Origin: Taxillus chinensis
Lineage: Eukaryota > Streptophyta > Magnoliopsida > Santalales > Loranthaceae
Direction: 5' to 3'
DNA: 64,000 nucleotides
NCBI GenBank assembly: GCA_023512835.1
Contig: CM042087.1
Location: 21,209,260-21,273,259 of the forward strand
Made by a program: the position numbers and the translations under genes. Shown here piece by piece: positions 10,314-60,071 of the stretch (the first letter of the stretch is position 1; every line of letters begins with the position of its first letter). The notes under the pieces are model-generated. The model was not told the DNA's origin. It saw only the letters and a list, made by a program, of their open reading frames with translations, and did no database searches.

Positions 10314-10524
10314 TGTTGGATCAAGCCCAGAATTTGGATAATGCTAATAAAGCCTTATGTAATTTGATCTGAGATCTTTTGTGTTTCTTCGATCGTTGCA
10401 GAAGATATGTTATTAATCCGGAGATACACTCGTGAGAGCAAAGCTAAGGACAGGATACATAATCCTGATCCGTACAAGAGTGAGTGTCGTCAAACACTTG
10501 GTAAATAACCAAGTCACCAATACA

Positions 10525-10960
10525 TACGGAATAAGGAAGATTCGTGCGGACTAAGTCAAATTGACGCTAAGTAAGAGTCTTGGTTTACAAGGTCGCACGA
10601 AGTAAAAGAAGACACAGAGTAAGGCATCTAAGTCTTCCATACATGCGGAGTAAGGAAGTACTAATGCGGAATAAGGACCCGAGTCTTTATTAGACACGGA
10701 GTAAGGAAATTAGATGCGGAGTAAGGAATCCGGGCCACTCACTTATACGGAGTAAGGAAATTACATACGGAGTAAGGAACTTACATACGGAGTAAGGAAG
10801 CGCTGATACGGAATATGCACTCTGACCTTCTCGTTCACATGGAGTAAGGAAGCGCTGACACGGACTAAGGATTCCAGTACCAAATAGATACAGAGTATGC
10901 AATCACTGACACGGAGTAAGGTTCCGAGCCTCATTAGCTACGGAGTAAGGAAAATTACAC
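10525..10960 (+). repeat. CGGAGTAAGG motif array in the U3 of the Copia B 5' LTR
   Basis: More than a dozen copies of a 10-12 bp motif (ACGGAGTAAGGA and close variants) at irregular spacing of about 20-40 bp. The same array occurs in the 3' LTR (about 22090-22500) and reversed in the A LTR (about 27780-28400). Its position before the TATA box suggests enhancer-like protein-binding sites; the binding factor is unknown. Confidence 0.8.
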
Positions 10961-11252
10961 CGGACCAAGAAGATACTGCTTCAACTCAACCGCATTTAAA
11001 GTTATCAGCTCGCAGTGTCCCGATGTAAGACAAACTCGTTGAGAACCTGAAGAATCTTACACGTGGATCACCCGGATATGTGGACACAACCTTAATTATA
11101 TTCGGGAACTCACAAAGACACTTATACTCTTCAAACCCAAGATCTTGAGCTCCACAATCCGCAGCAGTCAAGGCAGAGAGATTACCGAGGGATAGTTAGT
11201 GCTGAACGCATTCCGGAACTACAAGTTCCAAGGCTCTCTTAGGAATGTTTTG

Positions 11253-11260
11253 TATAAATA
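11253..11260 (+). promoter_or_regulatory. TATA box of the Copia B 5' LTR
   Basis: TATAAATA about 320 bp before the LTR end, on the coding strand of the element. The same octamer stands at 27437-27444 in the 3' LTR. It is the likely start of the U3/R boundary region. Confidence 0.7.
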
Positions 11261-11576
11261 TTCATACTTGTACATTTGTGTATGAGCGCGTGTGTGCATT
11301 TGTAAGCAAAGATTAACCCTGTGTATGCACAAGTGGTTTTTTTTGGGAGATAGAATTTGGCTAGTGTGTGAGTTCATTTGTAAACAGAGTGCAAGAGAGT
11401 CTTGCTTCTATTTTGTTGTATTTATCTTGTGATAATAAAACAAAATACTTCCACTATCTGGTTATCTTCCGTGGTGATTTTATCACTTAACTAGATAAGT
11501 GTTTGTGTCTTAAGAGAAAGAAAAGAGTTTCGATAAGAGCCTATTCACCCCCCCTAGGCTCCAAGGGACCATCAAG

Positions 11577-11588
11577 TGGTATCAGAGC
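11577..11588 (+). promoter_or_regulatory. Primer binding site of Copia B
   Basis: TGGTATCAGAGC, complementary to the 3' end of initiator-Met tRNA, two bases after the LTR end. Confidence 0.92.
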
Positions 11589-11634
11589 AGTTCTATTTGT
11601 TCTAAGTAGAGATCTCACTCTTTCAATCTCAGAA

Positions 11635-13935
11635 ATGGCCGAAGAAAGTAGTATGTTATTCAACACTCGCCTTAACTCCGAAGCTGCACAGGAGCCCATC
11701 CCGAATCGAAGCAGCAGTGAAAATGTCGACCCACCTCAACCTGTTGCTGCCGCCGCTTCTCAACCACGGAGTTCTGGCTTTACTCTGACGAAACCGCCCA
11801 AATTCACACCTGAGCTTTTCTCCCAGTGGAAAGCTCGCATGAAGATGTTTATGGTATGCCATGATCATCTTATGTGGCCATGTCTTCATCTGGAGATTCC
11901 AATTCCGATGACTATCGGAGAACATGGAGTTAGGAGGCCAAAGACAGATGCTGAACTTACCAACGATGAAAGAGCATGGCAGTGCGCTAGTGAAAAGGCT
12001 CTGGCTTATGTTACATCGTCTTTGGATTTCGAGGCTTTCACGGACGTCCAGGGCTGCACGACAAAGAAAAGCCGTTTGGGACAAACCGACAATCCTCTAT
12101 GAGGGGAGTCGGTCCCCAGGATACGGAACGTGATCTGTACTCTCAGACGGAACTTTGAGAGTTTCAATCATAAACCGGGCGAATCACTCGAAAGCATCTA
12201 TCGGAGATTCGGCAAGCTCATTCTTGAGTCAAGACGTCAATGAGCACTATTCTCAATCCCGGATCAATGACAAGTTCTTTCGCTCCTTGCCGGATCACTA
12301 CTACTCTAAACAACTCCAGATGCAATCGACAAGAACCGCGTATGTTCCCCTTGAACAACTATATGGAGAGCTGCGGACTCACGAAGTCAGGTTTAAGTAC
12401 TCTGACCGGGATGAGAAAATAGCTCGGAAAGAAAAGGGGGCAGCTCTCAAAGCTACAGAATGTCTAAACATACTGAGGAATGATAGATATGGACGTGTCC
12501 GAGAATTCTGATTCTGACGAGGAGGAGGAGATAGCACTTCTTGTCAAATCCTTTGAGCGATTCCTACGGAAAAGCAGAAAAGGGTTCAGGAGACGCTCAT
12601 CATCATCTTTCCAAAGGAAGGAGCGACCGGAGTCTAGTTCCCAGGAATGCTTCAACTGTGGGAAAACCGGTCACTGGCCAAGGAATGCAGGTCCAAATCA
12701 AAAGTGGCCGAGAAAAGTGACAAGGTAACTCCTCGCCGCTCCACCTTAGACAACAGCAAGAACAAGAGGAAGGCGCTCGGACAAAATACATGAGTGGCTC
12801 GGAAGAAGAGGAGGAATCCTCGGATGATGAGCCAACCACTAAGCCGAACGTGTGCCTCATGGCAAATACTGAGGTACCTTCTATCTCTGAGCTCCTGAGT
12901 AAATTAGAATCTCTTCCTACTGCATGTGATCATGAAAAGAATGAGAGACTAATAATTACTCAAATGTACAAAGATATGGAAAGTCAGAATAAACGTCTTG
13001 AATTTACTATTAATAGACTCAAAAAGGACATCACTGACTTCAGAGGAAAAGAAGCTTGGTATCACGATCTAAGAGCTGAAAATCATTTGTTAAATACCAA
13101 TCTCTCAGGCCTAAAAGTTATAGTAAAAAGACTCGAAAATGAACTGGAACAGGAAAAAGAAATAAATCGTAAGTGGCTAAAATCCAGGGAAATAGCCTCT
13201 ACCTTTAGGACTGATCTTGACGACATCCGAGTCAAACCTGGCCTAGGTTCCGAGTCATCAACATCCATAGCTCAAGCTACTGAGTGTCCTCCGGATTTCA
13301 CTCCTAAACTAACCAACTTATATCCTGTTAGTACATCTAAACCGTTGGATGGTTTCATTTCAGGTGGCACCATAGTTTATGACTGTGGAGTCGAGGCTGT
13401 TACTGCACTTCCCGAAGCAGTAGCACCCGTAACTAAAGATGAAGGGAAGGTTGCTGCAGTTAAAGCCAAAACTATAGCACCCAAAAAGAAAGACAAGGCT
13501 AAGGCTGATGCATCTAGGGCCAAGAGCGCGTCACCCAAACGCAATGGATTAGGCCACAGCGAACAGAGTAGAAAGTCCTGAAAATCTAAGAGACCTGTAT
13601 CCCCTATTTGTACTTCACATTATAGTGTCTATTCCATCTGTAGGGAAATAGGTCATTATCACTATGAATGTTGGAGTTTATCTGATAACTGGCTTTGTAA
13701 TCAATTTCATATCAATAAAGATCAGTTAAACAAAAAGGGTTCTTCGAGCAAAACAAAATCTAAACCTCGAAGGAGTATCTCTCCCAAGAAAACCCAAATA
13801 AAAGAGGTAGCTGAAACTAACAAGCTAAAGTCAACTTGGAGAGCTAAAAGTCCTAGCAAAATCAAATCCGTAAATGTTGACAATAATGCTACTCTCTCTA
13901 ACCGCCCGAAACAAGTTTGGGCACCAAAAGTGTAA
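11635..13935 (+). pseudogene. Copia B gag
   Basis: Starts at ATG 11635 (MAEESSM). It aligns throughout with copy A: capsid-like part with KPPKFTPELFSQWKARM, acidic Ser/Glu stretch, CCHC knuckle (CFNCGKTGHW, then shifted), coiled coil about 12900-13200, basic Lys/Ala region, second CCHC knuckle (CREIGHYHYEC). Frameshifts are visible near 12060, around 12130-12240, near 12470, near 12680 and near 12780. A TGA at 13579-13581 interrupts an otherwise open frame. The last codons VWAPKV are followed by TAA 13933-13935, shared with copy A. It would form virus-like particles in the cytoplasm; this copy is non-functional. Confidence 0.9.
13933..13935 (+). promoter_or_regulatory. In-frame UAA between gag and pol of Copia B
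   Basis: TAA ACT G context identical to copy A, with the pol frame continuing unshifted (TVVFQEHLWNALPDH, then the protease). A splice-acceptor-like TGTTGTCTTTCAG follows at about 13938-13950. Conservation of the stop in two otherwise differently mutated copies suggests it is ancestral. Confidence 0.6.
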
Positions 13936-16900
13936 ACTGTTGTCTTTCAGGAGCATCTCTGGAATGCATTGCCGGATCACTTAAAGTTAAAGATCAATAA
14001 AAGCAAGTGGATCCTTGATAGTGGATGCTCCGGACATATGACGGGTGATTAGACTCTACTGGTAAAAGCTGATGATAAACAAGGTCCATCCGTTTCATAT
14101 GGCGACAACAGCAAAGGTAAGACTGTCGGGTATGGCACCTTAACTAACGGTTGTGTATCAATCACTAGAGTTGCACTAGTCGAAGGTTTAAAGCATAATT
14201 TGCTAAGTGTCAGTAATTTATATGACAAAGGATTTACTGTTTCCTTTTTGTCCAAGACCTGTACAGTAAGAGAAAACTTATCCGGAGATGTTAAGTTATC
14301 CGGATCAAGAGATGGAGACATTTACTCAGTGGTCTTAAGAAATAATTCTTCTGACCCTGTATGCCTCCTCACTAAAGCATCAGATGAAGACAGTTGGCTA
14401 TGGCACAAGCGATGCGCACATTTAAATTTTAAGATTTTGTCTAAATTAGCGTCCCTTGATCTTGTCACTGGTCTACCTAAACTCAAGTTCTCCAGAGACT
14501 CTCTCTGTCGAGAATGCCAACTGGGCAAACAGACCAAACATAGCTTTAAGAGCAAATCAGTTAATTCAATAACTGCTCCTCTGCAACTTCTTCATATGGA
14601 CCTATGTGATCCTATATCTGTTCCGTCACTAGCTAGTGCGAGATATACCCTAGTGGTTATCGATGATTTCAACAGATACACATGGGTGATGTTCCTGAAA
14701 TCAAAGGTTCAAACTTTTGAGCATCTAGTAGATCTCTTCAACTGGATAAGCAACTCACAAGGACTGAGCATAAAGTGCATCATGAGTGATCATGGTATAG
14801 AATTTGACTTTTCAGAAATGAGATCATATTGTTCTGAACAGGGCATACAGCATGACTTCTCTGCTCCCAGAACTCCACAACAAAATGGAGTAGCTGAGTG
14901 CAAGAATCGTACTTTAGTTGAAGCTGGTAGATCCATGTTAGCGGGGGCAACGCTTCCTCTCGGCCCATGGGTGAAGCCGCGTCCATCGCCTGCTATGTTC
15001 GGAACGGAACTCTAATAAATATATCTACCATGAAAACACCCTATGAGATGTGGAGAGGACGGAAACCTTCAATTTCACATTTCAGAGCTTTTGGGTGTAC
15101 TTGCTATATATTGATAAATGGCAAAGAGACTCGGAATAAATTTGAACCAAAATCTGATGATGGGATTTTTGTCGGGTACTCATTACATAGCAAGGCTTAT
15201 CGGGTCTTCAATAGAAAACTTTTCAAAGTTGAAGAATCTATCCATGTGACTTTTGATGAAGCTAACCTTGATTGGTCAAAAGTCGGTTCTTCAAGTTCTA
15301 ATGTGCAGGTCATGGACAACAACGTCGATTATTCAAAGTTTATGAATGTTCCTGTTACACATCTTGACCAACCACGTGGCATCAGCGAAGCACAAAGAAA
15401 TTATATGGATGATGCTACGGATGACTCGGACTCCGGACTACCATTTAGCTCCGGATATACTCCTACGGATACCCAAAATTCCGGAGCACCTTCAAGTCCG
15501 TCCGGACTAGTTAACACTGAAAGAAACAGTGTTGAAGAACCATCTAGTTCAACCGTACCTGTCAATACGGAAACATCTAGTCCGGACGAAGTTCAACCAG
15601 CGAATACAACTGAACCACCTAATCTGGAAGAGCTTCAAATTGTTCAAGATCATCCATCACATGCACAGAATTACAGATGGACTCGAAACCATCCCTCAGA
15701 TCAAGTGATTGGTGATCCTACTGTTGGTGTAAGAACAAGAGCAGCCACCTCCAACATGAGTCTTTACTCGTGTTTTCTATCTCAAATAGAACCAAAGGTG
15801 ATAGATGAAGCTCTTCAGGATTCGAATTGGATAGAAGCCATGCAATAAGAGCTGAATCAATTTAAGAGAAATAATGTGTGGACCTTAGTACCAAGGCCTA
15901 AGTCTCAGCAAGTCATTGGCGTTAAATGGGTGTTCCGGAACAAGCTTGATACGGATGGAATGGTAATTCGGAACAAAGCCAGACTGGTAGCCAAAGGATA
16001 TCGTCAAGAAGAAGGAATAGATTATGATGAGACCTTTGCTCCGGTAGCAAGACTTGAGGCAATCCGAATGTTTCTGGCGTATGATTCATATGAAAACTTC
16101 ATAGTTTATCAAATGGACGTCAAGAGCGCATTCCTGAATGGAGATCTTCAAGAGGAGGTGTATGTTGAACAACCTCCCGGCTTCATTGAACCTAAGGCAG
16201 GACATCTTGTCTACAAGCTTCGGAAAGCTTTATATGGTTTGAAGCAAGCTCCAAGAGCCTGGTACAACACACTGTCAGAATTCCTACTTGCTCACAACTT
16301 CCAAAAAGGGAAGATAGACACCACCCTATTTCTACGAAAAGAGAAAGGACACACTCTGATCGTACAAATATACGTGGATGATATCATTTTCAGATCAACG
16401 AATCCGAAGCTTTGTGAAGAGTTTGCTAAGTTGATGATAGGCAAGTTTGAGATGAGCATGATGGGAGAACTGTCCTACTTCCTTGGAATAGAAGTTAAAC
16501 AATTAAAGGGAGGAATCTTCGTTAATCAAGCTAAGTACACTCGCGATCTTATTAAGAAGTTTGGTATGGAAGATTCATCTCCCGTCAAAACTCCCATGCC
16601 TGTCAGTGCCAAGTTAGATCCGAATGTTGACGGCATATTAGTAAATGTGACTGACTACAGAGGGATGATCGGATCCTTGCTGTATCTTACAGCAAGTCGC
16701 CCAGACATTATGTTTGCAACTTGCATCTGTGCACGATACCAGGCGAATCCCAAGGAGTCACATATGCTTCATGTTAAACGAATATTAAGGTATCTCAAGG
16801 GAACGATGAATTTGGGACTCTGGTACCCAAAGGAGTCCAACTTCACCTTATTCGGATACTCTGATGCCGACTTCGCTGGATGTCGCATCAACAGGAAGAG

Positions 16901-17318
16901 CACAAGTGGTACATGTCGGTTTCTTGGAAATAGATTAATTTCATGGTTCAGAAGAAGCGAATTCCGTATCAACCTCTCTTGTTGAAGCGGAATATATAGA
17001 GTCTTTGGGAGTTCGTCGCGCACGGCTACTCGGATGCAAAGTCAACTTACCGACTACGGTTTCAACATGTCATCTATTCCACTCTCTTGCGATAACACTA
17101 GCGCTATTGCTATCAGCAACAATCCTGTCATGCATCCTAAGACGAAGCATATTGAAGTCCGGTATCACTTCATACGTGATAATGTTCTTAAAAGTCACAT
17201 CTCACTGGAACACGTTGCTACTGAAGATCAACTGGCCGACATTTTTACAAAGCCCCTACCTGATGCAAGATTCTCTGAACTACTTATCCGTTTAGGTATG
17301 CTCGACTTTTCTGCATAG
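13936..17318 (+). pseudogene. Copia B pol: protease, integrase, reverse transcriptase, RNase H
   Basis: Domains in Copia order. Protease motif DSGCSGHMTGD at 14017-14049. GAG-pre-integrase zinc part (WHKRCAHLNF ... CRECQLG). Integrase acidic residues in HMDLCDPI, MSDHGIEF and NGVAEC. RT from about 15880 with [23 protein letters not shown] and the catalytic YVDD at 16371-16382. RNase H ends with ADIFTKPLPDARF and the stop at 17316-17318. Lesions: TAG 14050-14052, frameshift near 14965, TAA 15846-15848, frameshift near 16950. RT phrases such as GKIDTTLF and [19 protein letters not shown] are typical of the SIRE/Maximus lineage. Dead as a polyprotein. Confidence 0.92.
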
Positions 17319-18988
17319 TTTCACATTTAATTTACCCAACAGTATACTTACTATCAGAACATGGATTGTGCTTTTATTGAAAGTGGAAGATACATACTGA
17401 TTTTAATGCTGATCATACTTACTGATTAACGGCTTCGTGCTTCTGATATTAATATCAACTTCATTCTGGGAGGATGCTTGCGTTTCCCGACTGAAGTCGT
17501 TTAAGCTAACATGATTAAAGTTTATATGATTTACCTCTTTCTGGTTTCATGATCTTAAATTCCACTAATCACCACATGACAACAGCATGTTCATTTAGAT
17601 TACTCTATTAACGTGTATAGTTGAAGAAATGAAATGGGTTAGCTCGGAATGCCTGGTGGATGAATACTCAATCGCAGTGGAGCCCAAGTATAGTTTTCTA
17701 ATAAGATAGACAGTGCTGAATTCTACAAACCAGAAATGTCAATCGAGAGGATTGCACAATCTACGGGGGAGAAAATGCTTTATATATTATTCAGTAATAC
17801 CCCTCGTATATGTCTCATGACCTCTTTTCTGGCTGTCTATTTGAGGGGGGAGCTTTTCATTGAGAGGATTAAATGATCTACGGGGAGCGATAATGAACCC
17901 CTAATATGTCTCGGATACTCCCTCCTCTAAACCTTTACTTCAGGATCCGACAGGACATGCTTGTTTTGGATCGGAAAAGTGGCCTGCTTGGATGTATTTT
18001 CTTTCTTCAACCATGCATTTTAATCGGCTAATCACCTGCTTACTTTTGACATGTGTTCGCTTCCACATTTTTCACTCATGAATCCTAAATTGGCCAAATC
18101 ATATGATCTTTAATTAATCTTAGCTACGTTGTTCAGCAAGACGGTTTCGCTATGTTGACCTATATGAACTTGTGTATGGTTATCTGACATATGCCCTGAT
18201 TCAGTAATATTGCTCATTCTCACGTATGTATCTGTCTCTTACATGCTTTGTAATGCATAAGTTCTGTTTCTCATTAGTTCGGATTATGTCGTTTTTCACT
18301 GATTATTTTCCATAATCCGTACTAATCCTTGCCTATTAAGCTTTTGTATTTTCAGTTCATTTCTTTTTTAGCTACAGGTTCAGATTCTCTTTGCAACCGT
18401 ATCGATAAATCTAGTCCATAGTCTTGGATTTGAAGTGTTGTGGTACTTCTCTTCTCTTCGACTTATGGACTGCAAAGAAATCTACTTTACTCTCTCACCG
18501 AACTCTGTCTACTATGGGCACGGTCTACTTTTCATCCAGATACTCTTCCTCGACTATTATTTACTCTGGATGATTGTCAGTTCATTCCTCCGGACTCCTG
18601 ACACAGTCTAATTGCGACGATCCAAGTCTTCCTATATGTCGCGTGCTTTTGAGGAGGAATCATGATGATTCATTAAATGCAAATCTCGGGATGCACACAC
18701 ACTTCTCTGGATGGCAACCAGTTGTTACACTTACTTAGTCATGCGGTCTCCACGACATCGTTTCATTCGGAGGCGCATCGATATCCAGACTAATGACATC
18801 ACGCTGTCAGCGGGTCCCTATTTCACTCGCCAATTCCTAGACCCGCTGACATTTGCGGATTCGGTCTTATATGTTCTGATCAATCCTGCGTAGCACGAGT
18901 ATTGCTCATTTCAAATCCCTAAACCTCTCGTTGCTCCTTCCATCGCCCAGACCTCACCTTTCCTCTTGTCCTTCAAATTTCATTTGCA
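17319..18988 (+). other. Copia B spacer between pol and ORF2
   Basis: Non-coding, AT-rich, about 1.67 kb. It contains two polypurine boxes of the form GAGAGGATT...ATCTACGGGG(G)AG (about 17744-17771 and 17861-17887) and a separate GAGGGGGGAG (17843-17852). Similar boxes occur at the same place in Copia C. Repeated polypurine motifs are known from Sirevirus 3' regions. A weak TATA-like TTATAT (about 18867) and CCCTAAACC (about 18918) stand before the ORF2 start. I see no gene here. Confidence 0.7.
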
Positions 18989-21732
18989 ATGGCACCCCAG
19001 AATCTCTCTTTCCGGCGTTAATCCTGGCCATCTGGTTGATTGGAATGCTGCCTCTAATCCTCCGGATTGGTTTTTCCAGCTTCGCCCCTCTTTGAAGCCT
19101 CGCATATACTCAACCTGATCTCCAATCCCGTCGATCTTCTTATCGAAGACATCATTAAGTATTACCAACGGATTCGCTGCACCACCGATTCTATACTCTC
19201 CTATGTCCGCGGTGAATCCATCACCATCACTCCGGCCGTTCTCCGCGCTGCTCTCCATCTACCCCCCAGTGAACCACAGCGCCCTGATGCTGCTCCAATG
19301 GCGGTTTCTATGGGTAGCACCCACAAAGGCAAGGAATACAAGGTGAAATCCTTCCAAGGTCGCTATCGCTGTATGGCGACCATACCTGAGTCCATCCATT
19401 GGCTCGCACTTCAGCTCTGGACTCGGTTCCTTATGATCTTCTCCTTGCCATGTACGGCGTTTTTGAAGGTCTTCCGCTAGATTGGGGGACGTTTTTGTTC
19501 CGACTACTGCAGACTGGTCCTAAGAACCATTCTTTCGGGAGCATACTAAGCATCGTCTTCCGGCATCTCAATCCGGACCATTTCGCCCGATATGATGTTG
19601 TTCCATTTCCCTCGGCTTACTACCTCCGTTATCTTACGCCAGATGGGAACATGACGGCCCGCCATCCCTCTACAGCTCTCCGCATTCTCCCTGCCTCAGA
19701 ACAACAAGGCAGTTCTGTTGGTGACCCCTTCGACAGCCAAGCCCCTGACGTCAGTTCTGCACCCCGATCCTCCCGGATTCGGTCCGTTGCAGCACCCTCT
19801 CATTCTCGGGCCTCCCAGCACAGCGTCCGTGCCGAACCGTCCAAGGTTACGGGACCATCTCAGCGCAGTGCTCCTAAAGCTGTTTCCTCAGCCCCCTCTG
19901 CTGCTGATGTCCCCACTCCCGCCACCTCCGCTATTGCTACCGCGGTTGATACCGCTGTTGCTGTCGCCACTGCTGATGTCCCAGCATCTCCTCCGGAAGC
20001 TCCTTTGCCTCCCCTACCTCAACCCCGAGATTATCTTGCCCATCTCACCACCAACACCTTAACGGACCTTTGGCTCCGTTTCAGCCTAGCCCACACCTCC
20101 TCCATTCCTGACACCGATCTCCGGGTGTTTTACACAGGCAATACCCAATCCCTGGAGACCATGATCATCTGGAACTTGAACCAAGGCTTTCTTACGCCGG
20201 CCGCCATTCCCGATGTACCATTCCCTACACCCTCCGGCCCAGTCCCTGCCGCACGGAGTCCTTCCCCTGCTAAGGCTGGGCCCTCTTCTCCTGCCGCCGC
20301 GATTCCCGTGGTTGACTTATCTGGTCAAAGCGGGTCCATTGCTCCGGATGCCTCCGATGCTCCGGATGCCTATGATGCTCCGGATGCTCCTGCTGCTGCT
20401 GATGCTACTCCTGCGGACTCCTCTGTCCCGCGCCCTCCTGCTCCTGTTCATGCGGGGGAGTCCTCCAAAGCTCCAGAGTTGGTCCTTGGGCGTGCTTCTT
20501 TTGGCACGGTTCACTCTGACGCTGTGCTCTCTGCTCAGCTGGACCGACACGCTCACGCTCATAGTGCCCAAATCTCCGCTATCGCCGCCAAGGTTGATGC
20601 ACTTGGCGCCCAACTCCTCTCCGCTCTCACTGATTCCTCCACTTCCATGGAACAGAAGATGGATCTCGTCGCCTTGTCTGTACATTCCTTGTCTACCTCC
20701 TTCTCAGACCTGGCGCACACGATGGCCCGCCCTCCCGTTGCTTCCCGGCGATCTGCCCAACCGGGGGAGAGAGTGTCATCTGATCCTTCTGCTCCTCCTC
20801 CTGCACCACAACCATTGACTCGTGCTGAGAAGCGGCCTGCCTCTTCATTGCTTCAGGAAGTTCAAATTCCCAAACGTAGCCGCTTCTCTCAGCCAAGCTC
20901 CTCGATCGCTGTGCTCCTCCTCCATCCTCCTCATCCGCACCGATACCTTCCTCCCATCATATCAGCGTTTGACCCTTCTAATGCGGATGGAAGCTTGCGC
21001 AAGGCAATGAAATCCTATCTTTGCGTCTTCCGCGAGAGAAGATGTCTTTCTGAAATGTACCCTTTCTCCCCGGCCGACATTCAGACTCTTTGTTTGGAGA
21101 AAGGACTCTTTACTACAGAAGACATTGACTACTTTTCGAGGGCTGCTAAAATGGAGATGAGGCTGTTTCCATCTCTCTACAAGGATGGGCACTTGTTTGA
21201 AGTTCTACCGTGTTGGAATGAAGGCTATCTTCCCGGTGTGGATCTAATTCAGTCCTTCATCGACGGAACTGCTAAGGATAGCAAGCCATGGAAAACTCTC
21301 TCAACTATCCTCATTCCGTACCGGATCATGTCGCCACACTTCATGATGGCTGTCTTCATGATTCAGTCCAAGCAAATGATTCTCATTGATTCTCATCAGA
21401 TTGTGGAGCACTTTGTAAGAAAGAATCAATGGGAACCTCTGTGTCTCAGGCCGATCGAAGCCGTGAAGAAAGCTGGATTATATGAAGAGTTGGGCATCAC
21501 ACCCTTGCGTTCGACTGAGAAACTCAAGGCGACATTCCGGGGCGAAAAGCAAGTGCCACAACAGCCGGATGGAGATAGCTGCGGAGCCTTTGTCTGTCAC
21601 TTCATCAAGTCATTATTAACTGTGGACAAATATTGGAGCCAACACACCACTTTTACGATGAAGCAGACAATGGAGCTTAGAGAGAAAGCAGCAACTATGA
21701 TCTTTAAGTATAGTAAGCCTTATGTTCCTTAG
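18989..21732 (+). CDS. Copia B ORF2: N-terminal retrotransposon domain, linker, Ulp1/C48-like cysteine protease (N-terminal part frameshifted)
   Basis: Start taken at ATG 18989 (MAPQN) by alignment with Copia C. Frameshifts near 19010, 19110 and 19410 break the first 140 codons. From about 19420 to 21732 the frame is open for over 760 codons. Order: N-terminal domain (GHLVDW, YVRGESITITPAVL, LPLDWGTFLFRLL), Ala/Pro/Ser linker with the SUMO-interaction-like IPVVDLSG (20302-20325), an alpha-helical stretch (20540-20720), then a C-terminal domain resembling Ulp1 proteases. The expected catalytic residues are present: His 21337-21339 (SPHF), Asp 21388-21390 (LIDS), Gln 21562-21564 and Cys 21580-21582 (QQPDGDSCGAFVCHF). 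Ulp1 enzymes cleave SUMO precursors and conjugates. Whether this one does, or acts on ubiquitin-like or viral proteins, is inference. It lies where Sireviruses usually carry an env-like gene; no signal peptide or membrane segment is seen. Confidence 0.8.
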
Positions 21733-21867
21733 TGAAAATCTTGTATTAAGGCAGATTTGTATTTTGTTGCTGATTAATGAAAATTGGTTGTGACGCGTAT
21801 TCGTATGTTATCTTTTTCTGACCGCTTACCGGATCGGATTACAAAGGGTTTGGGCATATCCATAATT

Positions 21868-21875
21868 AGGGGAGA
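21868..21875 (+). promoter_or_regulatory. Polypurine tract of Copia B
   Basis: AGGGGAGA one base before the 3' LTR start TGTTGG; primes plus-strand DNA synthesis in LTR elements. Confidence 0.8.
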
Positions 21876-22706
21876 TTGTTGGATCAAGCCCAGAATTTGG
21901 ATAATGCTAATAAAGCCTTATGTAATTTGATCTGAGATCTTTTGTGTTTCTTTGATCATTGCAGAAGATATGTTATTAATCCGGAGATACACTCGTGAGA
22001 GCAAAGCTAAGGACAGGATACATAATCCTGATCCGGACAAGAGTGAGTGTCGTCAAACACTTGGTAAATAACCAAGTCACCAATACATACGGAATAAGGA
22101 ACATTCGTGCGGACTAAGTCAAATTGACGCTAAGTAAGAGTCTTGGTTTACAAGGTCGCACGAAGTAAAAGAAGACACGGAGTAAGGCATCCGAGTCTTC
22201 CATACATGCGGAGTAAGGAAGTACTAATGCGGAATAAGGACCTGAGTCTTTATTAGACACGGAGTAAGGAAATTAGATGCGGAGTAAGGAATCTGGGTCA
22301 CTCACTTATACGGAGTAAGGAACTTACATACGGAGTAAGGAACATACATACGGAGTAAGGAAACGCTGATACGGAATAAGCACTCCGACCTTCTCGTTCA
22401 CACGGAGTAAGGAAGCGCTGACACGGACTAAGGATTCCATTACCAAATAGATACGGAGTAAGGTTCCGAGCCTCATTAGCTACGGAGTAAGGAAAATTAC
22501 ACCGGACCAAGAAGATACTGCTTCAACTCAACCGCATTTAAAGTTATCAGCTCGCAGTGTCCCGATGTAAGACAAACTCGTTGAGAACCTGAAGAATCTT
22601 ACACGTGGATCACCCGGATATGTGGACACAACCTTAATTATATTTGGGAACTCACAAAGACACTTATACTCTTCAAACCCAAGATCTTGAGCTCCACAAT
22701 CCGCAC

Positions 22707-22852
22707 TAGGGGTGTAAAACGGCCTGGCCCGGCCCGGCCTGTTGCGGGGGCGGGCTTAAACGGGCCAGCCCGTATATTTAATGGGCTAATAATAAGCCGG
22801 CCCGGCCCGGCCCGTATGCGGGCTGGACAGGCCCGCGGGCCAACCTGCAAAA
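22707..22852. repeat. hAT left terminus: TIR and subterminal GGCCCG repeats
   Basis: TIR at 22707-22722 followed by clustered GGCCCGGCCCG, CGGGCC and GCCCG words in both orientations. Such subterminal repeats are transposase-binding sites in hAT elements. Confidence 0.85.
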
Positions 22853-23074
22853 TTTATATGATAGTTTTTTTGTGTTTAAATTTTTAAATTCAAAGCAATA
22901 TAACATCTACAATCACTATTACATCATTGAAATTTTTAAACTTTCAGAAAAACATCTCATAATCAAATTCAGCTAATACATATACAATCCAACTAAATAA
23001 TAATTAAATGACATATTATAAGTAACAATAAATGATACTAAATTGGGCCTTGAATGCACATCAACTTTGCACTG

Positions 23075-23600
23075 GCCTTGAATGCTATCCAGACCCAGCT
23101 TCTGAATTGTGGACATGGACAGGCAGGACAGCCCCAAATTCTCTGCTGCTGATAAAAGGCCTGCTTTCTCTGCTTTGGTTAGGAGCTTCAGCTGCTCTAC
23201 CCTTGTCAGCCGTTTAACAGGGGGAGAAGTTGACGAGGGCTTTCTATTCCTAGGGCCTAGCTGGCTCCCCATGGGGAACACGGATGAAGCCTGCATATTG
23301 GTAAAAAAATGAACAATATAAGAGCAACTCAAGGCAATTTTTCAAAACCCCACAATAGATTTTAGTTGTTATTCATTTTTTCAAGATTCAAGAAAATAGT
23401 ACAAAGAACAAAAAATATAGGCCATCATACTGAACAAAATAAATAAAAATGCAAGTGATTGTAGAGGGCAGAAAAAGAGGGGAATGATTAGCGATTACTT
23501 GAGCTTTTGATGGTTTGATCTTGCTCTGCATCTTTGTAAAGAAGAACAAAAGAATGGGATTCCTCTGCTGCTACAAAGACGCTGGCTTCCATAGTGCTGG
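23075..23600 (-). pseudogene. Captured host-gene fragment resembling DUF1118/RIQ chloroplast protein
   Basis: On the minus strand, 23306-23120 encodes [19 protein letters not shown], then [14 protein letters not shown]. From memory this is the conserved start of the DUF1118 family, which includes the Arabidopsis RIQ1/RIQ2 thylakoid proteins; the rest of that domain is absent. Upstream, 23592-23500 encodes a short exon-like MEASVFVAAEESHS..., ending near a GT donor (about 23500), and TGCAG at about 23295-23299 is a plausible acceptor, so two exons and an intron may have been captured. The fragment has the same orientation as the transposase and lies downstream of it. It is not part of any hAT transposase I know. 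Identity rests on recall of one motif, so moderate confidence. Confidence 0.6.
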
Positions 23601-23690
23601 CTGCATTACTGCATAGGTTGCTGGCTGTTGGCTGGCGGCTGCATAGACTGCTGGCTGGTGGCTGCATAGACTGCTGGCACTGCTATGCAG
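23600..23690. repeat. Short minisatellite in the hAT element
   Basis: About three or four imperfect copies of a unit near CTGGCTGGTGGCTGCATAGA, immediately before the exon-like part of the captured fragment. Confidence 0.7.
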
Positions 23691-23899
23691 GTTTTCTTCA
23701 CAAACATGAATTAAATATAATAACAACTACCCAAAAGCAATACAACACAAGCACAGGCACATTGAAAACTCTAAAAACAATAATAAAAACAACATTTTAA
23801 TACAGTACATGTTTTAGTACAATAACAAAAGCTAAAGCAAACTTAAACAAAACATGATGTGACAAAAGTACAATATCTAATATCCATAACAATAAACAT

Positions 23900-26208
23900 C
23901 TACATATTCTCAATAGTCACTTCATCTCCTTCTAAATTAATGGTATTTGAACATTTGACTGATTCATTTTTCTCAACATCTTCATCATCATCTTCCCAAC
24001 CTATAAAATAACAAATTATAAATATTAATTGAATTCAATTTGAATAGAATATTTATGATTTAAAAAAACCGCCTATAGTGTAAAAAGCTTACCACTAGGA
24101 GTGAAACCATGAAGCCAACTTCGTGTGCAAATGAGAGCTTGAACATTTTTGTGAAGGAGACGACTCCTATACTTGTTCAACACACGTCCTCCAATACTAA
24201 AAGTTGATTCCAAGCAACTCGTAGTAATGGGTTTGCTTAACAAGTCGAAGCCATATTAGCTAGGATAGGATATCTAATACTGTGATCCTTCCACCATTTC
24301 AAAATATCCAAGTCATCATTACTAGCATAATCAAGCTTTGGCATATCTAGATATACTTCCAATTGAGACTTAGAGCTTGATTCAACATCTTCCTCATCTT
24401 CCGCCAAACTCATCCACCTCTATTCATACATTAAATGTAAAGACAGAATCAACAATCAATAAATAATAAATTAATAATCATAAACGTTTAGACTATTATA
24501 CATACATTTGAAATAGATCTGGTAGGAATTGATGAGGAGGAAGCTTCATTTCGTTGTTGAGTACGTGAAGGTGTAACAAGCTCACTCTTTGCATATTCTT
24601 CATAAAGCATGAAAAGCTTATTCTTCACCACATTTAACCTCTCATGAGCACTATGAGGATTAATGCTAAAATAACAACGCTTCAACATTGTGAATTTTAC
24701 CCGTGGATCAAGAACCACCACCATTGCAAGTAAAACATTGTACTCACTCCAATATTTATCAAATTTCTTCTTCATATGACAAGCCATCATCCTCAACACT
24801 TCATCTTGCCCATTCAAATACTCCAAAAGAAGTAACTCAATTTGCCAAACTTGCCGAAAATACAAGTTGGCAGTTGGATAACTGGAACCGGATATAAGAT
24901 TTGTCATCTCATAAAATGGCATCAAGAATTCACATATTTTCTCTCCTCTCATCCACTCCTCATTTGATGGACAATACTTATAATTGCTATCATTTAGAGC
25001 AAACATAGCAAATGCTCGTTTGTACTTTAAAGCACTTCGAAGCATTAAATAAGTAGAATTCCATCGAATAGGCATGTCTAAGATCAAGTATGCACATATA
25101 CCAATATCACACCTTTGCACACATTCATCAAAACTTTTCATTCTTGCCTCGGACCCCTTCACATATTTAATGCTTTCTCTAATTTTTTCATTTGCAGCAG
25201 AAATCACTTTCAATCCATCTTGAACAATCAAATTTAATATATGAGCACAACATCTAACATGAAAGAATTCACCACCACAAAGCAAACCGTCTTGCAACCG
25301 AGTTGATCTCTTACATTGGCTTGCATGTTATCATTAGAGGAAGCATTATCCAAAGTAATAGAAAAAATTTTCTTGCATATCCCCCATTCATTTACAATTT
25401 CCATCACCTTTTTAGCTATTTGAAAACCCGAATGTAGAGGTTGTATGTCACAAAATGCAAGAATCTTAGCCGATAACTTCCAATCTAAGTCAACATAATG
25501 TGCAGTCAAACAAAGATATCCCTCATTAGAACATGCAGTCCATAAATCACAAGTGAGACATATCCTACCATGAATCTGAGCCAAGCATTGTTTCAATTTT
25601 CTCTTGCTTTCATTATAAAGTTTCAAAACATCTGATGCAGCAGTAATTCGAGAAATGAACTTGACTTCAGGGTTTAAATACTTCCACACATTTCTAACTT
25701 CATCGTACTCAACATATCCAAAAGGAAGATCATGCTTTATAATTGACATTGCTACCATGTCCCGAAAAATCTTTTGATCTATTTTTTTGCTTCTCAATTT
25801 TCCTTGATGGTCAATAAGGATATTAGGAATATTTGATTGTCTCAAAGCTCTTAGTCCTTTACATTTTCCCATATGCCGAGTAAGAGTTGATGTACCATAT
25901 TTGCTACCACCACCAATATAAGACTCCCCACATCCTTTACATTGGGCATGCGGCTTTCCATCATTACCCATGCCCAAATCCTCAAAATAAACCCATACAT
26001 CTGAGGTTTGCTTCTTAGATTTCTTGCCTTCACACTCAATTATTTTCTTTCCATGTTCATGCTCAATTTCAGATTCATTTGTGCTTTGAATTTGATCAAG
26101 TGGACGTTTATCACGAGATAACCGTTCAACTGCATTACCACCTTCACTTCCCAAGTCACCCAAATCAATAGCAGGTAAATCATGTTCGGAAGCCATGTTA
26201 TTACACAA
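23900..26208 (-). pseudogene. hAT transposase, three exons, frameshifted
   Basis: Start at ATG 26208 or the in-frame MASEHD at 26196. A BED zinc finger spans about residues 70-117 (CKGCGESY ... LTRHMGKC). Two catalytic Asp are visible: D at 25546-25548 (LTCDLWTA) and D at 25348-25350 (ITLDNASSND). The C-terminal hAT dimerisation region has [19 protein letters not shown] on 24100-24240, preceded by LDILKWWKDH. Likely introns are 24420-24505 (GTATGT...AG) and 24001-24092 (GTAAGC...AG); the last exon ends at stop 23900-23902. A 1-nt shift near 25300 separates ANVRDQ from LQDGLLCGGEFFHVRC, and another near 24247 falls just before the dimerisation motif. Family length is about 650-700 residues, which fits. 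The protein would bind the element ends and cut and join DNA in the nucleus. Confidence 0.88.
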
Positions 26209-27139
26209 TTAAATCAGGTAAAGTGACTGCAAAAAAAAACCAAACAAACAAGTCACACAATTAACCTAACCATAGCAATTTTAGGCATTACATATTCCAT
26301 CATATTATTCATATATATTTCTAAATTTCAATTGAAATCAAACAAGAAACACAGCACTGGAAATATGAAAACAGACAAGACAACACTCAAACTGTCAAGA
26401 GAAAATATCAATAGTATTATCAATGCAAGCTATGATGAAGCGTTTTTTTTACCTAAACAGAGTGAGACTTTTTTTTACCTGCCGCTGCCGTGGACAGAGA
26501 TGGAGAGGTAGGCTGGAGCGATGGCCGACTGCGACTATGGTGAAGCGTGGAGAGCTACTATTGCTGCGTGGAGAGCTGTTGGAGTGATGGCCGACTATGG
26601 TGAAGCGTGTGGCTAAATCTCGAGATCGTGAAGCTTGAGAGCGGCTGGATCGACGCAGTGGCCAGTGAGGCCGGCGATGGCGTCAACGGATTCGAAGGCC
26701 AACGATGACTGCGCTGGATAGGATCAGGTTGGTCGCCGGTCGGCGTTGGCAGTCGCTGGTGTAGGGCGTCACTGCGTCAGGCGTGTCGCGAGACTCGCGA
26801 CTTGTGCGGCGTGTGGGTTTCGACTTTCGTGGTGGAAGAGGAAGACGATGTAGGTTTTCGTGGTGGAAGTCTGGAAGAGCGGAAGACGATGTGGATTGTG
26901 GGTTTCGTCTTTCGCGTGGGTTTTCCGTTTTCGTGGTGGAATGCTACGTAGCTCGGTAGTTGGAAGCCTGGAACGAGTCACCGAGGAGGGAAGACAAAGG
27001 TCGAAGACGATGAGAATGCGATGTGGTTTAGGTAATTAGGTTTAGGGATAGGGTTGGGAAATTGGCAAACGCTTACACAATTACACAAATTAGGGGGATT
27101 TAGGGTGGGCGCCACACACCCGCACCCTTGCACACGCAG
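26209..27139 (-). other. hAT 5' leader region upstream of the transposase
   Basis: No coding frame I can support. It becomes GC- and G-rich toward 26480-27000 with repeated GGTGAAGCGTGGAGAGCT and TTTCGTGGTGGAAG words. Probably untranslated leader and promoter. Confidence 0.5.
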
Positions 27140-27338
27140 ATGTAGCCGCTCACAGCTGGTTGCTTGCCCGCGGGTTGGTCCGTGCCCGTGCGGGTTAGCC
27201 CGCACGGATTACAATCCGCGGGCTAAATCCGCATAAGCCCGCTTTTAAAATGGGCCTCATTTTTTTTTGGCCCGGCCCGCAAAAATCCGCGGGCTGGCCC
27301 GCAAAGCCTGCGGGCTAAGAGCCCGTTTTACACCCCTA
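27140..27338. repeat. hAT right terminus: subterminal CCCGC repeats and TIR
   Basis: Many CCCGCGGG, GCCCGC and GGCCCGGCCCGC words mirror those at the left end; the TIR occupies 27323-27338. Confidence 0.85.
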
Positions 27339-27766
27339 ATCCGCAGCAGTCAAGGCAGAGAGATTACAGAGGGATAGTTAGTTCTGAACGCATTCTGGAA
27401 CTACAAGTTCCAAGGCTGTCTCTTACGAATGTTTTGTATAAATATTCATACTTGTACATTTGTGTATGAGCGCGTGTGTGCATTTGTAAGCAAAGATTAG
27501 CCCTGTGTATGCCCAAGTGGTTTTTTTTTTGGGAGATAGAATTTGGCTAGTGTGTGAGTTCATTTGTAAACAGAGTGTAAGAGAGTCTTACTTCTATTTT
27601 GTTGAATTTATCTTGTGATAACAAAACAAAATACTTCCCCTATCTGGTTATCTTCCGCAGTGATTTTATCACTTAACTAGATAAGTGTTTGTGTCTTAAG
27701 AGAAAGAAAAGAGTTTCGATAAGAGCCTATTCACCCCCCTCTAGGCTCCAAGGGACCATCACATCT

Positions 27767-39863: not shown

Positions 39864-41337
39864 AGGATCCTCGATGATTTAATGCTCAAAGGATGACTGA
39901 GACTGTAGTATTTGAGAATCATAAAAAGCCTATTACTTAAAAAGAGCTACTACCTTTCACTAGAAAAGGCAAGGGGAAAAAGACAAAAGCTAGACAATAG
40001 ATTGACTGCCTATCTTAGGGGAGTCCTCACTATTCTCCCAGTTTGTGTCTCTGTTAAAGTAATAGCTGGAGATAAAATTGTATGATCATGTGATTCAAAA
40101 AAGAGATTGCGTTGAGCTCTGTCCTTATAAAAAGGCTCAAGAATAAGCGCTGAAAATTGGTGCTCTACAAAAGCAAAGAGACAACTCACGCAGACAGTTT
40201 GAATGATCAATCTTCAAACTCTACCTATACTGTGTTGTAAATTAGACAAGGATAGAGTGTGTGTTCTGATTCTCAATACGGCCATCTTGTCTCTCAAGTC
40301 ATCTATGCTGAACTGAAAATCATTGTTGGATCTGGGTTGTGGTAAGATTCGGTTGACCATGAGCTTACCAAACAGTGTAATTCTAGTTCCTGAATCAAAC
40401 TCACATGCTGATCCGAGAGTGAGAGTCTGAGGCCTCCGCTGAGTGAGTTTTGCTAAATATGTGAGGAGACTCATAATTCATGACTGGGTTGTTACAATTG
40501 ATAAATCATGGTTTACTGGTTGCTATGTTAACATCGTGATCATTCTCACGCACAAGATGTAGTGTGATGAAGTACTTAATCATTTCTAAGGTAAATGGAG
40601 AGTTGAATAGTAGTAATGCAGTAGGCATACATGTAAACCAGGTATTAGGGATGAAAGAAATCAAGTTCTGAATATGTAATTTCAATTCCACCAACAACAT
40701 TGTTCATCGTGAATATTATTATGTGAATTGTCATATGCTTTTCATGTGTGTTGTTGCGTGTTGAAAAAGTCCAGAGAAATCCACCGCTCGCTGAATTCGC
40801 AGTCGACCTCGAAGCAACTGCATCGAAGAACAGCGGGATCGAAGATTGCTGCTTCGAAGCTTTGAGGGTCGTAGCCTCGAAGCATCCAGCTTTGTAGAAG
40901 TTGCTGTCCAAAGGATCGAAGCGAGATGAAGTCTGTCATTCACTATTCAAGCCTCGTAGAAACATTAGCACGTCACTGTGCACTTAAAATGGAAGCTATA
41001 CCGACTTAAGTGGTGACGTGGACTCATTGCTTGAATATTCCAACGGGTGGATCCGGATGACAAAAAGGGCGGGTCAGAGAAAAGAACGCGGACCATGAAG
41101 ACGAACCGACAGAGTGAGTGACTTCTACGATACACTTCTCAACTCATATATAAGTCACTGATAGAGACGGAGCTCAAAGGTATGTTCGTCGTTTTCACAC
41201 TCGAACCCTAACCCTAGAACTCTCTCTCTCTCTCTTCGACTCTGTCTCTTTCTCTCTTTCTCTCTCCATTGACCACCTTCGAACCTTACAATCTCTCTCT
41301 ATGAGTGTCTCTTTCGCTCTCTCTCTCTACAAACTCA
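39864..41337 (+). other. Copia E region upstream of ORF2
   Basis: No supported coding sequence. Holds TCGAAG-rich words at 40795-40880, a TATA box, a CT-rich tract (41219-41330) and CCCTAACCCTAG (41206-41217). Short antisense open frames at 40214-40474 and 40506-40700 match nothing I know. Confidence 0.6.
41147..41153 (+). promoter_or_regulatory. TATA box upstream of Copia E ORF2
   Basis: TATATAA 185 bp before the ORF2 start, followed by CGAACCCTAACCCTAG and a long pyrimidine patch, which together look like a plant core promoter and 5' UTR internal to the element. Copia C has TATTTATAC 118 bp before its ORF2. Confidence 0.55.
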
Positions 41338-41634
41338 ATGGCAGGACCAAGCTCATCGATGGCCGACAACCTACGCAACATCGTCCCAGGATTCATCATA
41401 GACTGGGAGGCCATAGGCGACGCCAAAGTCAGCTGGCTGGACAAATTCAAAAATCGCCTCGATGAAACCGGTATTGTATCTGTCTGCTCAGGGATGCAAG
41501 ACTTGCTAATAGAAAATGTCGTGGAATTTTACGAAACCATGGTACTCTCTGGAGACGACCTTATGGGAGCTGTACACGGAGTGGAGATTCGTATCTCTAC
41601 CGAAACAATCCGAGATGCACTTCCTGTTAGATTA
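41338..41634 (+). pseudogene. Copia E ORF2, N-terminal part
   Basis: ATG 41338 (MAGPSSSMADN; an upstream in-frame ATG at 41305 adds a Ser-Leu stretch). About 99 codons: VPGFIIDWEAIGDAKVSWLD, LLIENVVEFYETM, EIRISTETIRDAL. These align with GHLVDW, LLISDVRTFYEHF and SIRITLQV of Copia C and with the matching part of B, so the domain is shared by the families. It is cut after TTCC at 41634 by Copia G; the protein resumes near 55212 after losing about 75-80 residues. Confidence 0.75.
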
Positions 41635-41649
41635 TTGAATGAAAAATTA

Positions 41650-41960
41650 AATAGGTTAATACCTTTTTATGGAAAGACACATCATTACCAAAAGATATGT
41701 CCATTAGGGTATTACCTTTTTATGTAAAGGTACATCTTTACTAATAGGCATGTCATTTGGAGCGTTATCTTTCATAAAAAGATACAACATTACCAATAGG
41801 TGTGTCCTTAAAGGATTATTTTTAAATGAATAGGCACACCTTTTACCAAGAAGTATATCCTTTAGGATGAAAAGCCATCAATGATAACTCTTAGGCATAC
41901 CTTTTACCAAGTAATCTATCCTTTAAGATGAAAAGTTATCAATGATAACTCTTAGGGTCA
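41650..41960 (+). repeat. Degenerate tandem repeats in the Copia G LTR
   Basis: Units of about 55-65 bp; the clearest pair is ACCTTTTACCAAG...ATCCTTTA(G/A)GATGAAAAG...ATCAATGATAACTCTTAGG at about 41840-41955, with older copies before it. Located before the TATA box, a usual place for LTR enhancer repeats. Confidence 0.75.
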
Positions 41961-54247: not shown

Positions 54248-55190
54248 ATGGCAAATATCCCAAATGATGAAACAAACATTCCGCATTCTGAGTAGCAGCA
54301 ATTCACCATGTTCCTACACATGGAGAGAAGCCTGAAAAGTTCAATGGAACTGAGTTCAAGAGATGGCAACAAAAGATGCTATTCTATTTAACTACATTGA
54401 ACTTGGCCAAATTCCTTTATGAAACAGCCCCTATACTTAATGAAGAAAAGAGTGATAAAATCACTGTTGCGGCTGTGGAGGCATGGAAGCATTCTGATTT
54501 CTTATGTAAGAATTACATACTTAATGCATTGGACAATACATTATATAATGTATATAGTTCAATTAAAACTGCAAAAGAGTTATGGGACTCTTTGGGTAAG
54601 AAATACAAGACAGAGGATGCTGGGCTCAAGAAGTTCGTGGTTGGCAGATTTTTGGATTTCAAAATGATTGATTCCAAGACCATTATAAGCCAGGTACAAG
54701 AGCTTCAAGTAATTTTACATGAAATTCATGATGAAGGTATGACCTTAAGCGAATCTTTTCAAGTTGCTGCGATAGTTGAAAAATTACCACTGCTTTGGAA
54801 AGATTTCAAAAATTACTTAAAGCATAAGCGCAAGGAAATGAGTTTAGAAGACTTAATCGTAAGATTGAGAATAGAAGAAGATAACCGAAATTCGGAAAGG
54901 AAGAATGGGAAGAATCTTCTAGAATCTAAGGCTAATATGGTTGAACATGGGCCTACACACTCCAATAAGAAAAGGAAGCATTCTGGTGAAGGGACTTTTA
55001 CAAGACCTAAAGGTAGACATGCAAAAAGGTTCAAAGGCAAATGTTTTGTGTGTGATAAGCCAGGACATCAAGCTAAAGATTGTCGTCAGCGAAAGACTCA
55101 AGAGAACAATAAGAGAGCTCAAGCTCATGTGACTCAGTTAGAGAGTCTGTCTAATACAGTTAGTGACATGAATTTATCGGCGATAGTGAC
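54248..55190 (+). pseudogene. Copia G gag
   Basis: ATG 54248 (MANIPNDETN) is followed by TAG 54293-54295 and a 1-nt shift before [19 protein letters not shown]; from 54301 the frame is open. The UBN2-type Copia Gag domain ([35 protein letters not shown]) is followed by a CCHC knuckle [14 protein letters not shown] at 55042-55083. About 310 codons, shorter than the Sirevirus Gags in this window; a different Copia lineage. The frame ends in sequence that belongs to E ORF2, so pol was deleted. Confidence 0.85.
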
Positions 55191-55199
55191 GATTGCTCT

Positions 55200-57724: not shown

Positions 57725-58133
57725 CTGTCCTGTATGCTAACTCCTTGTACACTGCATTTCTTTTCTCATTATTCTGTGTACTTACTTTCCGGCAGTTATC
57801 TTGTATATATGTCTTTGCTCTGCTGCATGCTGTTCTGTGATTTATTCCATTGCTCCCCTAAGATTAGTGTTCTGGTGCTTGTTCCTCACCCCAGAAAGGG
57901 GGAGTGTCTCTCAGGGGGAGCAAGCTCGTAGGGGGAGTTATCTTTGACAGGAGCCAGCTAATGCAGACTTTATGCCTACGGGGAAGAGGAGTGTGTATGT
58001 TTGTAATTTTGATCTCCTCCACATTCTTTATATGCAAAGATATCTTCTAATTAATCTAACATTGCCCATCAAATTCGTGGTCTCAGACTTCATGTATTTA
58101 CCTGTTGTCAGCTTACATTAAATAGGGGGAGAT
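57725..58133 (+). other. Copia E 3' region with several polypurine tracts
   Basis: Non-coding. AAAGGGGGAG, CAGGGGGAG and TAGGGGGAG follow each other at 57895-57940, and AGGGGGAGA lies at 58124-58132 directly before the LTR. Multiple PPT-like boxes before the 3' LTR are a described Sirevirus feature. Confidence 0.7.
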
Positions 58134-59699: not shown

Positions 59700-59949
59700 A
59701 CACCTGAAGGGTGATCCTAATAGATTGACCTTGAATACCAGAGATAATCAACTGGTCATTGGAGTCAAAGTGCTCGTAGAAAGTCCGGACGTCTGAAATG
59801 AGAAGATCAGCCGGGGCAGAGACGATGTCGAGGAGGCCACTAGAGGCTAGCAAGGAGCGAACCTCGTCAAGCCAGACAGGAGGGTCGGAAATGCCGGCCC
59901 AGTCGACAAGATGGCCAGAAATAACTCCGTAGAGAGTGTGAGATGCCAT
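59700..59949 (-). pseudogene. Copia C ORF2, N-terminal fragment
   Basis: ATG at 59949 (MASHTLYGVISG). 83 codons: GHLVDWAGISDPPVWLDEVRS-type start, LLISDVRTFYEHF, IQGQSIRITLQV, then cut by Copia E. It has no frameshift here, so it shows the original reading of the N-terminal domain that is shifted in B. Confidence 0.78.
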
Positions 59950-60062
59950 TCTAATTTGAAGATTTGAGGAGAAGGAAGGAAGGTCTTTGGAGAATGGAGA
60001 GCGACGAGGGTTTAGGGCTTTGAGAAGTGAAAGCGATAACCTCACGCTCATGTGAGAGTTCA

Positions 60063-60071
60063 GTATAAATA
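60063..60071 (-). promoter_or_regulatory. TATA box upstream of Copia C ORF2
   Basis: On the minus strand TATTTATAC, about 118 bp before the ORF2 ATG, followed by AGCCCTAAACCCTCG, a telo-box-like motif. B has a TATA-like TTATAT at about the same distance and CCCTAAACC. Confidence 0.55.

Follow-up and report, generated by a model that had tools for sequence, protein, structure and literature searches.

A Sirevirus-type Copia retrotransposon (element B), found in a 64,000-nucleotide stretch of Taxillus chinensis DNA (the window), carries in the env-like position a gene, ORF2, that ends in a Ulp1/C48-like cysteine protease domain. This arrangement had been put forward by a first-pass annotation of the sequence, and it is borne out by a Pfam match, by the position of the gene and by the hallmarks of the element. 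The C-terminal domain of ORF2 very probably belongs to the Peptidase_C48 family. We propose, with a probability of roughly 45%, that the protease may remove SUMO or a related ubiquitin-like modifier from host silencing factors in the nucleus and thereby raise transcription of the element.

As first noticed, a long open frame follows pol in element B. The main ORF2 frame (19390-21729, plus strand) is open for 780 codons, ends with a stop at 21730-21732 and has pol on one side and the 3' LTR on the other. When region 19390-21876 was simulated 500 times with a first-order Markov model, the longest forward frame reached 314 codons. The N-terminal part of ORF2, which extends from the ATG at 18989 to about 19400, is distributed over two frames, and the main part follows in the third. 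Because of this, we consider ORF2 of B a broken, decayed copy, in which position 19399 is not the true start of the gene. Two features of the linker were recorded in addition: the residues VVDLS (about 20311-20325), which resemble a SUMO-interaction motif but turn up in 3.8% of 5000 shuffled sequences and do not enter our argument, and, noted by eye, a loose bipartite run of basic residues, KR-x12-KRSR (about 20827-20880). The coordinates of all features are given in Table 1.

Table 1. Features of elements B, C and D in the window.
Feature	Position	Strand	Details and evidence
Element B, Copia-type LTR retrotransposon		+	about 12.8 kb without the hAT insert (sum of coordinates)
B, 5' LTR	10314..11574	+	followed by CA/AGTGGTATCAGAGC (junction and PBS); self-blastn, boundaries
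B, gag-pol region	11575..17321	+	Pfam, ORFs, tblastn, motif
B, gag pieces	11503-12099, 12790-13578	+	
B, aspartic-protease-like motif	14017	+	motif scan
B, gag_pre-integrase and integrase	14200-15012	+	Pfam
B, RVT_2 (RT)	15876-16982	+	Pfam, E = 3.9e-79
B, RNase H	16902-17321	+	assigned by eye and from its match to C
B, one-mismatch AGGGGGAG octamers	17764, 17845, 17880 (17764..17887)	+	spacing 81 and 35, versus 81 and 36 in C
B, N-terminal part of ORF2	18989..19477	+	two frames, ATG 18989; translations, homology to C, D and P0001
B, homologous N-terminal blocks of ORF2	about 19005-19094 and 19088-19249	+	
B, main ORF2 frame	19390..21732	+	N2 block 19399-19662, Ala/Ser/Pro-rich linker, C-terminal C48 domain
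B, C48/Ulp1-like protease domain	21196..21720	+	tblastn with P0001 (E = 2e-16), Pfam, alignment, motif scan
B, terminal PPT	21868..21876	+	AGGGGAG, then AT and 3' LTR (TGTTGG)
B, 3' LTR, first part	21877..22705	+	
hAT-type DNA transposon in B 3' LTR	22706..27337	-	BED finger and hAT RNase-H-fold domains (Pfam)
B, 3' LTR, second part	27338..27761	+	
D, N-terminal ORF2 block	41305..41724	+	
D, remaining ORF2	55167..57721	+	55167-55559 (with a further N-terminal block), 55563-56432, 56429-57721; two frames; ends in C48
D, AGGGGGAG tracts	57897, 57913, 57930, 58124 (region 57897..58133)	+	four identical, all after ORF2
C, ORF2 N-terminal frame	59668..60105	-	ATG 59949, about 1.7 kb past its pol
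C, AGGGGGAG tracts	61065..61189	-	three exact, between pol and ORF2
C, end of integrase, RT, RNase H	61658..63439	-	

The motifs SPHF, LIDS and QQPDGDSCG, which had been read as the His, Asp, Gln and Cys of a Ulp1 protease, were confirmed in this order and spacing by alignment and by a motif scan. The catalytic-type residues of B are His 21337, Asp 21388 (His+17), Gln 21562 and Cys 21580 (Gln+6), a spacing that is also that of yeast Ulp1. The search against the C48 profile, which the annotation had named as a check, gave a significant match: Pfam PF02902 (Peptidase_C48) was found in B ORF2 with an E value of 1.4e-5 and 25.4 bits (cut-off, 20.7) and in the last 259 amino acids alone with an E value of 2.9e-6 and 27.7 bits. 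The match in B spans only the Gln/Cys half of the domain (profile positions 160 to 212 of 217), and the His/Asp half is supported by alignments with element D and with P0001, a protein from a public assembly. Among solved structures, the best hit of a single-sequence search with the B domain was SENP1, at a nonsignificant E value of 0.15. A stop-free H-x16-D[SN]-x30..75-Q-x5-CG pattern had two matches over all six frames of the window, one in B and one in D, and none in 100 simulated windows. On this result and the simulated frame lengths, we reject a chance origin of ORF2 and of its active site. One match to a looser active-site pattern, at 63669, runs across a stop and was taken as chance.

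The LTRs of element B were aligned in two pieces that are 95.4% and 95.8% identical (self-blastn), and the five bases flanking the element (TATCT and CATCT) are alike at four of five positions. The gag-pol region contains frame breaks and stops; its motif at 14017 is presumably a Copia-type aspartic protease. Some 1.7 kb of linker separate pol from ORF2, and the 3' LTR starts 144 bp past the ORF2 stop. This LTR is interrupted by a hAT-type transposon, whose 8-bp target duplication, AATCCGCA, is exact (22698-22705 and 27338-27345). Element B is itself inserted in the LTR of a relative, element A (6402-10319 and 27763-28566, minus strand), to which it is 88.8% identical at the DNA level over 3952 columns. 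The match between A and B ends at 6402, within the integrase, and the window yielded no ORF2 belonging to A.

The 5' LTR/PBS junction of B reads CACCCCCCC...CCATCA/AGTGG + TATCAGAGC, of which we take the nine bases TATCAGAGC to be a tRNA-Met PBS. This matches the C-rich LTR end of Sireviruses and the junction CA/ATTGG (or AGTGG) that precedes their tRNA-Met PBS (PMC2829016); among the elements B, C and D, the junction is visible in B alone. Sirevirus linkers are further described as harboring identical AGGGGGAG tracts, four each on average and mostly after ENV; 83% of these are located less than 0.5 kb from the 3' LTR, and the last carries AT/TG (Bousios et al., PMC2829016). In the window, seven of the nine exact AGGGGGAG occurrences fall in the linkers of D and C. 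Those of D begin about 175 bp past the ORF2 stop, and behind the last one come AT and, at 58134, TATTGG, which we presume to open the LTR. The attachment site after the terminal PPT thus reads AT/TA in D, one base off, versus AT/TG in B; the end of C lies outside the window. The linker of B has no exact AGGGGGAG octamer, and its terminal tract reads AGGGGAG; besides the one-mismatch octamers in this linker, two more are found inside ORF2, at 20453 and 20762. Since the place of ORF2 beside these hallmarks is kept, the gene belongs to the elements, and we regard it as very probably an integrated Sirevirus gene.

Further ORF2 members were found by tblastn of B ORF2 and P0001 against the window. 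The gene is thus not confined to a single copy, as it is also present in D (with C48), in C (N terminus) and as P0001. Two sequences interrupt ORF2 of D, one being a Gypsy-type element (42094-53803) and the other a piece of Copia gag (54292-55242), and the remainder of the gene is broken by a stop and a frame change. The D C48 domain, within 56429-57721, matched Pfam with an E value of 5e-13 and 49.8 bits (cut-off, 20.7). It has the same four active-site residues as B (His 57308, Asp 57359, Gln 57518 and Cys 57536) and is 25% identical to the B domain over 157 columns. The pol of D was not found within the window. Of the two inserts, the Gypsy-type element, named by eye from its RT and integrase frames, has 1.7-kb LTRs that are 97.7% identical, and the Copia-type gag piece carries a zinc knuckle.

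Pol and linker of element C are about 79 to 80% identical to those of B at the DNA level. The two elements are collinear over 15536-18688 (79%) and 18783-19043 (68%), and the second stretch extends into ORF2. The ORF2 homology of C ends near 59690, and no protease domain was found in this element. With B and D decayed and C devoid of the protease, no intact ORF2 was found in the window.

Outside the window, P0001 (708 amino acids) combines the N-terminal blocks and C48 in one protein (Pfam E = 1.4e-9, 38.5 bits; cut-off, 20.7), and P0002 (453 amino acids), also from a public assembly, has the N-terminal blocks. B, D and P0001 share the four active-site residues and their spacing at 23 to 35% identity, which suggests that the active site was retained while the proteins diverged. 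Judging from these sequences, ORF2 is a gene family in which the blocks N1, N2 and C48 are joined by a poorly conserved linker. Residues 520 to 777 of B gave one match among 898 candidates, namely, P0001, and P0001 as a query recovered itself and P0002 among 5988 candidates. The whole 777-amino-acid B frame returned no protein at an E value of 0.001 among 7991 scored candidates, perhaps because its low-complexity linker exhausted the search words. Three scans of viral contigs yielded 0, 2 and 89 pattern matches, among which no relative was confirmed. None of the N-terminal ORF2 pieces reached a Pfam cut-off. Against Transposase_32 (PF20167; gathering score, 45 bits), P0001 scored 16.6 bits (E = 0.0075), P0002 13.6 and the N terminus of B 12.5, and the N-terminal pieces of C and D had no match to this profile. 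The N terminus of P0001 is thus weakly similar, below cut-off, to Transposase_32, a family that has been related to Athila ORF1 (PMC11728184).

By these comparisons, ORF2 is diverging fast. Protein identity of ORF2 among B, C and D is mostly 25 to 37%, compared to about 80% DNA identity in the pol and linker of B and C. The best mutual E values of the ORF2 pieces were 1e-13 to 1e-7 in very small searches, and a search of a large collection would make them less significant. When B was compared with C, dN was 0.067 and dS was 0.57 over 247 RT codons, and two ORF2 pieces (30 and 54 codons) gave pN values of 0.28 and 0.43 and pS values of 0.64 and 0.75, which are near saturation and come from small samples. 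Synonymous change is higher in ORF2 than in RT, and the history of ORF2 could therefore be older or recombined. Rather than as an acquisition of this Copia lineage, ORF2 is better described as an old, fast-diverging gene of several Sirevirus families.

According to Neumann et al. (2019; PMC6317226), 74% of SIRE elements have an extra ORF, and these ORFs fall into 19 groups that share little or no similarity at a blastp threshold of 1e-10; the authors left undecided whether this reflects fast evolution or separate capture. The ORF2 proteins of B, C and D lie close to or past the BLAST limit of that classification and nevertheless form one family, which favors fast evolution for these three. The seemingly unrelated extra ORFs of Sireviruses may thus represent one fast-diverging family, as expected under host conflict. 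The broader idea that many of the env-like genes in the 19 groups are a single fast-evolving counter-defense family of ubiquitin-like proteases, and not envelopes, is speculative, and we hold it to be rather unlikely.

We regard ORF2 as the env-like (3' forward extra) gene of a Sirevirus group, encoding a two-part protein with a family-specific N-terminal domain, weakly like Transposase_32, and a Ulp1/SENP-type C-terminal cysteine protease with a complete His-Asp-Gln-Cys site. The N-terminal part would position the protein in the nucleus, the protease would strip SUMO (or a related ubiquitin-like modifier) off host silencing factors, and removal of the modifier would lead to higher transcription of the element. 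Of this scheme, the position of the gene, its domain, the catalytic residues and its occurrence in more than one Sirevirus-type element are established by the sequence; we infer the enzymatic activity, SUMO as the substrate, the nuclear action and the anti-silencing effect. The proposal is supported by the action of SUMO1 and SUMO2 in transposon silencing in Arabidopsis (PMC6084981) and by the Ulp1-bearing KIU genes, which reside in Vandal DNA transposons that escape silencing (PMC13317346). In yeast, Ty1/copia RNA increases if Ulp1 lacks the part that targets it to the pore or if Ubc9 or Siz1/Siz2 is mutated, and the authors concluded that reduced SUMOylation activates Ty1 (PMC8585004). Several observations count against the proposal. 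Ty1 RNA also rises when Ulp1 activity is lost, and Ty1 is restrained by Ulp1 that is tethered (PMC8585004), so that the sign of the Ulp1 effect depends on the location of the enzyme. Under the conditions tested, silencing required neither SUMO binding by MOM1 and PIAL2 nor the ligase activity of PIAL (PMC6084981), and the Ulp1 domain of KIU has no known role (PMC13317346). Furthermore, a pattern scan for basic clusters gave no clear nuclear signal in the scanned parts of B, two D pieces and P0001.

The structural comparisons bear on the choice of substrate. In the structure prediction suggested in the first-pass annotation, the fold matches were led by Ulp1 and SENP chains and point to this type of protease, but the two models were of low confidence (pLDDT 40.5 and 35.6). 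The fold matches also included a NEDD8 protease, ASFV pS273R and poxvirus I7L. When a combined B and D profile was compared to solved structures, Dub1-type deubiquitinase/deneddylases were the best sequence matches, with E values of 5.6e-5 to 7.1e-5 ("membrane thiol protease" 5b5q, 5.6e-5; Dub1, about 7e-5), ahead of SENP1 (0.0011); they also ranked ahead of SENP1 for D alone (0.012 to 0.014). ORF2 might accordingly be read as a deubiquitinase or deneddylase that keeps Gag, integrase and ORF2, the proteins of the element itself, from being degraded, and the NEDD8 protease among the fold matches fits this. We consider it unlikely, as SUMO proteases lead the fold matches and the best hit of B alone, although not significant, is SENP1. 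Because all of these matches are remote, the substrate cannot be read from them.

Some viral proteases of the Ulp1-type fold process viral proteins, and the presence of two viral core proteases, pS273R and I7L, among the fold matches would be consistent with an ORF2 protease that processes the element's own polyprotein or ORF2 itself. However, this is made less likely by the aspartic protease motif that B carries in its own pol region, and ORF2 is located about 1.7 kb past pol in a different frame; we regard self-processing as distinctly unlikely. The literature names Sirevirus ORFs in this position env-like (PMC2829016), and ORF2 could be an envelope- or movement-like protein whose protease fold is merely structural or vestigial; the retention of the catalytic tetrad in three such divergent proteins makes this very unlikely. 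Finally, Ulp1 domains are known in plant MULEs (PMC13317346) and the window is rich in nested insertions, but a chance insertion into B of a piece of another transposon, for instance a Ulp1-bearing MULE, is extremely improbable, since D has the order N1-N2-C48 just before its PPTs and presumed LTR and P0001 has it within one protein. A stray MULE or host-gene piece was rejected on this shared order. Similarly, an assignment of the B gene to the Ulp1-bearing MULE KIU did not fit, as the gene is enclosed by a Copia pol and by a 3' LTR that has its matching 5' partner. Among these readings, we retain as our proposal an action on host silencing factors, from which SUMO or a related modifier would be removed.

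ORF2 resembles the env-like genes of SIRE/Sireviruses (eORF-3'F) in its forward position between pol and the 3' LTR, in the multiple AGGGGGAG PPTs (exact in D and C), in the PBS junction (of B) and in the high divergence among families (PMC2829016, PMC6317226). It differs in that no Ulp1/C48 domain is named for those genes in the covered parts of these two papers, the domain list in Additional file 4 lying outside this scope. Ulp1 domains have been recorded in plant MULEs (PMC13317346), in Ginger1 DNA transposons (PMC2836005) and in NeSL/Utopia non-LTR retrotransposons (PMC4640811). Like ORF2, KIU/Kaonashi and other Ulp1-bearing plant Mutator-like elements carry the domain in an accessory gene, a likeness drawn from its description, but those carriers are DNA transposons and not LTR retrotransposons (PMC13317346). 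In Ginger1 and NeSL/Utopia, the domain is part of the transposase or RT protein, whereas in B and D it belongs to a separate gene after pol (PMC2836005, PMC4640811). Athila, Ogre and Retand also have extra ORFs (Athila ORF-1, plant mobile domain, Transposase_28), but they are Gypsy elements, and no protease is named in these ORFs in the sections of PMC11728184 and PMC6317226 used here. With the Ulp1/SENP SUMO proteases and Dub1 (Peptidase C48), the ORF2 protease shares the profile match, the order and spacing of His, Asp, Gln and Cys and the fold matches of weak models, although it is remote from them in sequence. In the open-license literature searched, mostly titles and abstracts and exclusive of supplements, no Ulp1/C48 gene was named in an LTR retrotransposon. 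Absence from this literature, which comprises neither Repbase nor subscription papers, does not establish novelty.

The function of Sirevirus env-like genes is a long-standing question (PMC2829016, PMC6317226), and some plants contain such elements in great abundance, as exemplified by OPIE-2 and PREM-2 of maize (PMC2829016). A protease with a recognizable active site opens this question to a simple assay. Together with the KIU-bearing Vandal DNA transposons, a Copia retrotransposon would count among the carriers of a possible anti-silencing tool. By this analysis, the "envelope-like" gene, puzzling so far, may serve the element against silencing by the host.

Between elements B and D, the region 29056-39828 has direct repeats at its borders and contains a DUF7745 ORF (32176-33360), which is also weakly plant-mobile-domain-like, and a Retrotrans_gag ORF (34113-34988). 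Near its start, a tandem array of 8-bp CGAAGC-type units extends over 29106-29450; a tRNA-Arg call at 29185-29266 falls in this array and is probably spurious.
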